Assembly: GCA_003224055.1 (NCBI GenBank) | Contig: QHYE01000063.1 | Location: 1 to 64,000 of the forward strand | DNA length: 64,000 nucleotides | Direction of reading: 5' to 3' | DNA from: Acidobacteriota bacterium | GTDB taxonomy: Bacteria; Acidobacteriota; Terriglobia; Acidiferrales; UBA7541 | Shown: piece by piece, positions 17,362 through 29,189 of the stretch | Position numbering within the stretch: the first letter of the stretch is position 1 | Layout: each line of letters starts with the position of its first letter | Notes under the pieces: generated by a model | What the model saw: only the letters and a program-made list of their open reading frames with translations | Told to the model about the DNA's origin: nothing | The model's database searches: none | Program-made: the position numbers and the translations under genes

Positions 17362-17379
17362 TGGCGGAGAGGGTGGGAT
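17362..17379. other. Putative attachment site copy: 3' end of tRNA-Ser
   Basis: TGGCGGAGAGGGTGGGAT is identical to 29100-29117, which is the complement of the last 18 bases of tRNA-Ser(GGA), including the encoded CCA and discriminator. Both copies are in the same orientation. A truncated copy of a tRNA 3' end beyond the 3' side of the intact gene is the usual footprint of integrase-mediated insertion. Confidence 0.7.
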
Positions 17380-17545
17380 ACTCACCCAGCCGCTTTTCCT
17401 ATCCTATCATCTTTTCAGCAACATGCATGACACCCGCATGAACATTGGCGATTTCTACGGTCTCGCCTTTTTCAACTCTTTCAATCCTTCCGCATAAATA
17501 GCACCAATTTCGGGCCGAAACAGACACTAAAGACACCAAGACGTT
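17371..17545. repeat. Diverged direct repeat, copy A
   Basis: This stretch starts in the att-like sequence (GGGTGGGATACTCACCC) and runs to GACACCAAG. It aligns along its length with 25804-25973, roughly 70 percent identical by eye; identical blocks include GGTGGGATACTCAC, TTTTCAGCAAC and TAGCACCAATTTCGGGCC. No open reading frame is shared. It may be the left end of an integrated element. The rest of the 365-bp gene-free gap 17274-17638 holds the msrA terminator and nothing else I recognise. Confidence 0.7.
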
Positions 17546-17638
17546 TTGGGCCGCTCAAGGAGTGACAAAGGCTCTTCGCTCTATCGAGCCTTCCGTCTGT
17601 GAACGAAGGCGTGCTCTGGCGTTTTGTTCGCCGTTGTA

Positions 17639-18501
17639 TCAATGCCCAGCCAAATAGGTTCCCGTTACATACCCAAAGTTGCGCCTATGAGGATGTCCGA
17701 GGGATAGTGCTTTTTTGCCGGGTATCGCGAGAGACTGACTCCCGTAGCAAGCTCGTACGTTCCCCACTTCACTCATTTGTTTTTGGGATAGCGGTGAGCG
17801 ACCACCGCTGCAAATGCGAAACTTGTGGCTGAATGCCCGGATGGAAAAGATCTTCCGCCGCCCCAGAACTTTCCCGTGCTGTTCGGTGTGTAAGGAAACT
17901 GACGATCGAACGCGAGCTTGAGAACCAAATCTGCGGTGCCAGCCGCTCCCATTGCCGCGAGTGCATTGAATCCCGTATCGCGCAAATAGGAATGGTGTTT
18001 GCCACACCCCATGCCATACGCGAGAGCAGCTGATCCAAGCTCCAGGCCGAGGCCGACGTTTGACCACCGCCCTGCGGTTTGCTGCAAGGACTTGGATTGA
18101 ATGCGATTGTCAGCAGGCCGGTCTATCTCTGCGATCATCACACCGGTGGCTGCCAAGATTGGCAGCTCCCACTTCAAATTGCTGGGACGAACAGCGCTTC
18201 GGGGAACGGCCTTCAATCCATGCCCGAATTGCGAAGCTTCAGTCCAGGTTTCGCGGGAGAACCCGCGGATACTGCAGCGCGAATCTTTGGCGGCCTCTTG
18301 TGCGAGTGGTTGTTGTTCATTTTCTAGCGCCTGCTCTGAGAATCCGAGCGCGCCGGAGGGTGGTTCAGCGTTTTGAGTCCGTTCATCGGATGCGTCGGCC
18401 GCCTGAGCGAATGATGTAGTTGGGCCATGAACTACGGCGGCACAGATGAGAAAAGAACCGGCGAGAAGCCGGAAAGCACTTGTGATTCGGTGAATCGCCA
18501 T
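17639..18501 (-). pseudogene. PAP2-family phosphatase gene broken by a stop and a frameshift
   Basis: The gene starts at ATG 18501 (MAIHRITSAFRLLAGSFLIC, signal peptide, AGGAG upstream). It encodes PAP2 motifs: FDRQFPYTPN and FPSGHSATSFAFA. The frame then hits TGA at 17773, directly after HRYPKNK. Reading past it gives VKWGTYELATGVSLSRYPAK and KHYPSD, which contains the third PAP2 motif SRxxxxxHxxxD, and after one more frame change near 17668 GYVTGTYLAGH. The truncated product lacks the catalytic third motif. PAP2 enzymes dephosphorylate lipid phosphates at the membrane. It lies just downstream of the TonB receptor gene on the same strand. Confidence 0.82.
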
Positions 18502-18565
18502 GATCTTCAAAACTCCTATCGAACTCAGATGCATTCTGAATCGCAAGCGCCGGAACGGATAATCG

Positions 18566-28806: not shown

Positions 28807-28835
28807 AGCATATCTGTTGAAATGAAGGATGTCAA
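28807..28835 (-). promoter_or_regulatory. Promoter of brnTA
   Basis: On the minus strand TTGACA (28835-28830), a 17-base spacer and TATGCT (28812-28807) lie about 20 bases before the brnT start. TGTACGTACG, a palindromic stretch just upstream, could be part of the antitoxin operator, but this is a guess. Confidence 0.6.
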
Positions 28836-28895
28836 TACATTTGTACGTACGTCATAGGCTCAGGGTGGCGCTCCAATCACCCATCATCGAATGTG

Positions 28896-28917
28896 GGTGA
28901 GAGTGCCGCACTCTCCA
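28896..28917. repeat. Intergenic hairpin
   Basis: GAGAGTGC, one base, GCACTCTC, extended by three more pairs with a bulge. It lies in the gap between brnT and tRNA-Ser (28836-29099), where no gene is evident. No T-tract follows on either strand. Role unknown. Confidence 0.45.
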
Positions 28918-29099
28918 CCACCTCACTTCGGGTGACCGCCGTTTCTCGATGTTTACCTCCAAAAGCCGCGTAAACAAAGACTTCTGAGACAGCTTTCATA
29001 TGGTTATAAGTTCGGCGCCTCCGCTCGCAGCCCCGCACGTCAGCCACTAACACAGACACCATGAAATTCAAGGGAAGGAAAATCAATGACTTACAGAAA

Positions 29100-29189
29100 T
29101 GGCGGAGAGGGTGGGATTCGAACCCACGGTAGGGGTTAACCTACACACGCTTTCCAAGCGTGCGCCTTAAACCGCTCGGCCACCTCTCC
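29100..29189 (-). tRNA. tRNA-Ser (anticodon GGA), CCA encoded
   Basis: The complement folds as a tRNA: acceptor GGAGAGG/CCTCTCC, D arm GGCCGAGCGGTTTAAGGC, anticodon arm CACGCTTGGAAAGCGTG with GGA, a long variable arm (GTAGGTTAACCCCTAC) typical of class II tRNAs, T arm GTGGGTTCGAATCCCAC, discriminator G and CCA. It reads UCC/UCU codons. Its 3' end is duplicated at 17362. Confidence 0.96.

Follow-up and report, generated by a model that had tools for sequence, protein, structure and literature searches.

Genomic islands that are targeted to tRNA genes do not all encode their own means of integration, and an integrase gene is not required for those that are decayed or non-autonomous. Tycheposons target tRNA genes, have a tyrosine recombinase and carry cargo that can be exchanged; the locus described here resembles them by this general description only, and the host group differs. 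The ssrA islands of Dehalococcoides lie in tandem, several together, between repeats of the 3' end of an RNA gene; their cargo varies, and some lack the integration module (PMC3146451). CIMEs (cis-mobilizable elements), and the tandem accretion of integrative elements at the 3' end of a gene, are described as retaining att sites where integration and transfer genes are absent and as stacking units at one end (PMC5704250).

The window, that is, the whole 64-kb stretch of DNA that was analysed, very probably holds a composite genomic island at 17362-29117, at the 3' end of tRNA-Ser(GGA) (Table 1). This ~12 kb looks like foreign DNA made of at least two stacked units, A and B, each without an integrase of its own. 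The island is of a known kind, CIME-like, and would represent a new family. As in CIMEs, attL and attR are retained without integration genes for the outer pair, the inner att being only partial, and Pfam found no conjugation genes among the 10 island ORFs. Unlike in CIMEs, both ends stay conserved from species to species even where the cargo differs, one integrase-less unit appears to have moved between species, and the 10 ORFs that were scanned showed no ICE/IME backbone; as to an ICE/IME origin, integrase-bearing relatives occur at tRNA-Ser genes, with no transfer module seen. Mobilisation with or by a partner is something we infer from the horizontal transfer only. The likeness to the Dehalococcoides islands lies in tandem islands bounded by RNA-gene 3'-end repeats, whereas those islands involve serine recombinases and tmRNA (PMC3146451) and the loci related to the present one tyrosine recombinases and tRNA-Ser. 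A literature search for tRNA-Ser islands of Acidobacteria gave no paper, and in a wider search, for islands and elements of Acidobacteria, the best 10 of 131 titles included none on this genus.

Table 1. Features of the island and its left flank (positions in the window).
Feature	Position	Strand	Remark
msrA, left flank	16800..17273	+	34-183 bp from a tRNA-Ser gene in seven relatives
Distal attachment-site copy	17362..17379	+	exact duplicate of the tRNA-Ser 3' end
R-end copy 1	17378..17541	+	conserved non-coding, starts in the attachment core
Unit A, mosaic accessory segment	17380..25750	.	right limit between 25709 and 25750
PAP2-family phosphatase	17773..18576	-	Pfam
TonB-dependent outer-membrane protein with carboxypeptidase-regulatory domain	18566..21487	-	PF25183, PF13620, PF00593
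DUF2127 membrane protein	22370..22690	+	Pfam
Separately distributed module (ORF 22996-23871)	22807..23932	+	93% in G005, 90% in G011
Phosphoesterase family protein	23938..25512	-	PF04185
Inner junction	25751..25812	+	53-bp left flank and 8-9 bp core, shared with G022
R-end copy 2, end of unit B	25810..25974	+	found by search with the left end
Unit B body	25990..29092	.	two pieces, with 93% and 91% identity to the G017 unit that stands alone
GAF-SpoIIE phosphatase	26173..27744	+	Pfam
STAS-domain protein	27732..28097	+	Pfam
BrnA antitoxin	28197..28592	-	Pfam
BrnT toxin	28450..28803	-	Pfam
L-end, tRNA-proximal conserved non-coding	28892..29099	+	also in G017, G002, G046
tRNA-Ser(GGA), attachment site	29100..29189	-	ARAGORN

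The marks of a tRNA-targeted island that were found are a direct repeat of the tRNA 3' end, an empty site in relatives and a compositional difference; an integrase gene, usual in intact islands, was not among them. The repeat, TGGCGGAGAGGGTGGGAT, is identical at 17362-17379 and 29100-29117, both on the plus strand, and ARAGORN puts the tRNA 3' end at 29100, with the distal copy in direct orientation on the 3' side of the gene. The geometry on which the earlier note was built is therefore confirmed by sequence match and tRNA call. Similarity between the two copies extends to 31 bp (87%).

The gene order from before integration is found in relatives. Forty genomes besides the present one were searched with the tRNA and 24 besides it with MsrA, which matched in 22 of the 25. 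In seven same-genus genomes an intact tRNA-Ser lies past msrA with nothing between, the gap from the msrA match being 92 bp in G008, 34 in G009, 91 in G007, 183 in G010, 89 in G013, 115 in G005 and 97 in G023. The six sites that were inspected (all but G010) read msrA stop, intergenic stretch, TGGCGGAGAGGGTGGGATTCGAACCC. The present sequence keeps this order and spacing up to TGGCGGAGAGGGTGGGAT and then diverges into ACTCACCC; the insert runs from the end of the 18-bp core to the tRNA. The 88 bp from msrA to the core are not alignable with the empty sites and the match is one of gene order, spacing and msrA end, which counts against the composite-island account; blastn with 250 bases outside each core gave 74-86% identity to G008, G009, G007, G013, G005 and G023, at the msrA end only. 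Genomes with an insert after msrA (G006, G014, G017, G021, G003 and G004) were not counted as empty, nor were those in which the contig ends after msrA or which were not followed up (G001, G002, G011, G012 and G015). The ~1.4-kb insert between msrA and tRNA-Ser in G014 was rejected as an island, as it holds an IS481-type transposase. The comparison that the earlier note had proposed, for relatives with the left gene directly beside tRNA-Ser, thus had a positive outcome in these seven genomes, although the join is to the GGA gene in four of them and to tRNA-Ser(CGA) in G013, G005 and G023, a difference attributable to the inversion of a neighbouring segment that is taken up below.

The compositional shift expected in that note was also found, with a GC content of 0.547 for 17380-29099 against 0.583 for the rest of the window and 0.573-0.591 for 81 overlapping, equal-length stretches from the joined flanks. 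Codon usage, compared as GC3 only, gave a less clear picture, since the range of nine island genes, 0.49-0.70, overlaps with that of eleven flank genes, 0.61-0.76. The region had been read as a decayed island of accessory genes, several of them broken, with a toxin-antitoxin pair and no integrase left. An island at the tRNA-Ser 3' end is borne out by the seven relatives with msrA beside tRNA-Ser and by the lower GC. At least two units are present rather than one, and decay does not simply describe unit B, which seems to have been transferred between species while lacking an integrase. Breakage was found for the PAP2 gene alone, whose product lacks, at its C-terminus, 35-45 residues that the G017 and G045 homologues have. 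The toxin-antitoxin pair is BrnT/BrnA by Pfam, and no integrase was found by Pfam among the 10 ORFs or by tblastn with four integrase sequences against 17361-29099 (best E 1.3). What had been a motif spotted by eye is now documented as an insertion, together with the gene order that preceded it and a unit that moved horizontally.

Each unit starts with a non-coding R-end of ~165 bp, and the two copies in the island are 80-81% identical; the internal copy at 25810-25974 was absent from the earlier note. Nine copies were aligned and eight used in a sequence-only model, which finds R-ends at 11 places in seven of 36 same-genus genomes, the present one included, with two weak matches (G022, E 5.5e-6; G017:C26, E 5.5e-4). 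Seven of the 11 directly follow a tRNA-Ser core that has no more than 3 mismatches (17362 in the window, G017:C379, G015:C181, G002:C327, G002:C381, G006 and G021). The remaining four have no such core within 3 mismatches, which counts against the composite-island account: the inner copy of the island and that of G022 retain just GGTGGGATA, and near the G022, G015:C51 and G017:C26 R-ends the best core match has 7-8 mismatches. A second type of R-end follows the core in G017:C379 and G046:C232 (91% over 177 bp). The R-end is closed by a direct repeat, GACACCAAAGACACCAAG, and ACAGACACCA recurs in the L-end; these are possible candidates for integrase arm sites. The idea of the R-end as a structured RNA was rejected, the folded alignment having 11 pairs, none with a compensatory change, and Rfam returning the tRNA as its sole match in 16700-30000. 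An exact 21-base R-end pattern had no match in viral contigs; in genome contigs it matched 10 stretches, four of them known (G002 twice, G015 and G006) and six in other groups, so that the pattern is partly not genus-specific or these are chance matches.

The L-end, the 208 bases beside the tRNA, recurs in G017, in G002:C381 (82%), where tRNA-Ser(CGA) and a zeta-toxin-like gene adjoin it, and in G046:C232 (90%), where a zeta-toxin-like gene adjoins it and core and R-end type 2 follow, with no tRNA. It matches in six of 36 genomes, the present one included, with G022 and G044 matching only in the core-distal part, and it is common to units with different cargo. Within it, the reverse complement of 28897-28925 resembles the tRNA-Ser 3' end (by eye, ~5 mismatches in 18), which could be an inverted att-like relic or chance. 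As regards tandem accretion, two R-ends are present in the island and the inner core is of 8-9 bp only; that short core, with a left flank common to G022, counts against the composite-island account. The inner junction was also considered as a decayed tRNA end, which is doubted because the same 23 bases occur in G022.

Unit A is a mosaic. Parts of 17639-21907 occur in G017:C130, G019:C76 and G045:C148 (87-90%), 22807-23932 in G005 (93%) and 22873-23935 in G011 (90%), at other places there, and 23932-25708 in G019:C76 and for the most part in G017:C376. In G019 the part ending at 21897 and the part starting at 23932 are ~105 bp apart, and 21898-23931 therefore looks like a later insertion in the present genome. 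The pieces lie on different contigs or are reordered in G017, G019, G005 and G011, which counts against the composite-island account and means that assembly of unit A in place is possible; the evidence for its arrival by tRNA integration is its R-end and core. The TonB-dependent protein is presumably Oar-like.

Unit B (~25804-29099) stands alone in G017, where the order is tRNA-Ser(CGA), BrnT frame, STAS, GAF-SpoIIE, R-end, core, one 186-aa ORF and msrA. The two genomes are 93.3% identical over 25990-28507 and 90.8% over 28569-29092, as against 77.8% (13001-14479) and 74.6% (15512-17273) in the flank. Unit B has thus moved horizontally between species, and since neither copy has an integrase and both share the tRNA-proximal end, the integrase-less form would be what moved. 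Both the sister of the present genome (G023, support 0.998) and that of G017 (G013, support 0.999) have empty sites, in agreement with unit B having arrived twice, separately. Between the present copy and that of G017 the R-ends share only 84.5% identity where the bodies reach 93%, which counts against the composite-island account and against a simple transfer in one block; ends and cargo may have separate histories. BrnTA sequence is also found in G022 (84%), G002:C327 (105 bp, cut off by the contig end) and G015:C51 (78 bp).

Several other explanations were weighed. That the 18-bp match arose by chance in ordinary core sequence has negligible probability: no point in its favour was found, 100 shuffles gave a mean of 0.06 matches even with up to 3 mismatches, in keeping with the earlier note's view of chance, the window has no third match to TGGCGGAGAGGGTGGGAT at that threshold, and msrA adjoins tRNA-Ser in seven relatives. 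Integration of one element, followed by decay, with the internal R-end as a duplication inside it, would agree with the single full-length pair of core repeats, the truncated PAP2 gene and the lack of an integrase found. It is nonetheless improbable, because unit B occurs by itself in G017 with the tRNA on one side and core and R-end on the other, and because R-ends that are 80-81% identical do not come from a recent duplication.

For unit B itself, vertical inheritance with merely slow evolution would account for its position on the msrA side of tRNA-Ser in both the present genome (G000) and G017, but is highly improbable. The dS between the two is 0.18 for STAS, 0.175 for SpoIIE and 0.10 for BrnT, as against 1.34 for MsrA, 2.0 for a TPR protein (15485-16714) and 1.04 for an SDR protein (13632-14423), three genes within ~5 kb; the non-coding L-end part is 87-92% identical, though the R-end is at 85%; and in the sisters G023 and G013 msrA adjoins tRNA-Ser directly. 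The cargo might have been exchanged not by an integrase in trans but by homologous recombination among resident islands with L-ends, R-ends or BrnTA in common; this is not exclusive of the composite-island account, and we regard it as rather unlikely, if well above the other alternatives. The shared ends of ~165-200 bp could be used as homology, the step in identity at 25984-25990 from R-end (85%) to body (93%) fits a breakpoint, and unit A is a mosaic. However, the msrA side is far more diverged, so that any exchange ended inside the element, and the first arrival at the tRNA is left unexplained.

In favour of the composite-island account, integrase genes occur at related loci. Integrases start ~60-120 bp from the tRNA-Ser 3' end in G002:C272, G012:C570, G014:C26 (428 aa) and G021:C11 (414 aa), and at the same distance from the core outside the R-end in G002:C381 and G015:C181. 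The frames are partial or interrupted at G002:C381, G012 and G015; Pfam confirms those of G014 and G021, and the N-terminal domain at G002:C381 is below the curated cut-off. The integrase-bearing unit at tRNA-Ser(CGA) in G021 holds BrnTA sequence (91% over 514 bp) and AbiEii as cargo, and has the core with no R-end match. In the present genome two integrase queries had no matches at the thresholds used, which counts against the composite-island account; a PF00589 search counted 11 matches there, with places known only for those listed. A second island of the same geometry lies at tRNA-Ser(CGA) in that genome (L055, G000:C82, 6260-12913): the tRNA ends at C82:12824, a 26-bp exact copy of that end lies 6.5 kb away on the 3' side at C82:6260, and the exact 18-mer of the window's repeat is present at both positions. 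This island encodes an Apiosidase-like protein and, next to the tRNA, a C-terminal integrase fragment (L055:12290-12787, PF00589, E 1.4e-7). Outside its distal copy, the sequence is 70-81% identical to tRNA-adjacent sequence, mostly non-coding there, in G013, G014, G008, G007 and G010.

The units probably share a route of entry of the following kind. They would have arrived by tyrosine-recombinase integration, with a crossover inside the 18 bp common to element and tRNA that would leave the tRNA intact and mark the far side with a duplicate end, R-end and L-end being the putative two arms of the element's attP. As the units have no integrase, they would have been moved by one supplied elsewhere, by a relative that occupied the same site or shared the cell, and BrnT/BrnA probably stabilises unit B in the chromosome. 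The cargo differs between units, with Wadjet JetABCD in G015:C181 (L088, 2332-9034) beside R-end and tRNA-Ser core, a TOTE primase-helicase and a zeta-toxin-like gene in G002:C381, and an SNF2 helicase in G002:C327; the ORFs scanned in the G006 unit (one) and in the G021 GGA unit (two) include no defence gene. It is tentatively proposed, with more doubt than confidence, that these loci form a family of non-autonomous, integrase-less tRNA-Ser elements of this Acidobacteria genus, with two conserved non-coding ends, a BrnTA or zeta-type stabiliser and exchangeable cargo including defence (Wadjet, TOTE primase-helicase, SNF2 helicase). Integrases encoded by other tRNA-Ser elements would act on them in trans, and the same recombination would flip the ~20-27 kb of chromosome that lie between the two convergent tRNA-Ser genes. 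The conserved ends offer a probe for more such units, some of them carrying defence systems.

Either immediately or with an insert between them, the msrA flank adjoins tRNA-Ser(GGA) in the present genome, G008, G009, G007, G010 and G014, and tRNA-Ser(CGA) in G013, G005, G023, G006, G017, G004 and G021. On the 5' side, tRNA-Gln is found in all 16 GGA loci fetched and a TadA-like gene (named by eye) in all 18 CGA loci; an anticodon swap by gene conversion is disfavoured, since the 5' neighbours of both tRNA-Ser genes stay put. In G014:C4:162431-189628 and G021:C11:8991-53180 a single contig carries both tRNA-Ser genes, 3' ends towards each other, and the segment that these convergent genes enclose has opposite orientation in the two genomes; in the present genome the segment concerned is represented by window positions 1-17361 and L055. 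The swapped flanks and the opposite orientation together imply an inversion with breakpoints at the tRNA ends. On a 15-genome tree, built from three proteins within the flipping segment (some genomes having only one or two) and with 13 genomes labelled, orientation changed at least four times; the labels of these 13 genomes require 4 changes, where shuffled labels give a mean of 4.6 (range 1-6), and orientation is thus without phylogenetic order. An integrase or homologous recombination may be the cause. For the former there is a precedent in the Thermococcus pTN3 integrase, which can invert DNA between att sites (PMC5495485). The likeness is a possible att-site inversion; unlike the present case, pTN3 is archaeal, and no enzyme is linked to the inversion here. 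The flank swap offers a case, open to testing, in which tRNA attachment sites reshape a chromosome.

Two smaller observations concern the surroundings of these tRNA genes. ARAGORN also calls a tRNA with a four-base anticodon at 31163-31256, within the ORF 29357-31624, which is probably a false call. Furthermore, in six same-genus assemblies the contig ends within ~400 bp 3' of tRNA-Ser(GGA) (G011:C351, G016:C35, G020:C18, G017:C187, G015:C164 and G019:C104), which suggests repeats there.
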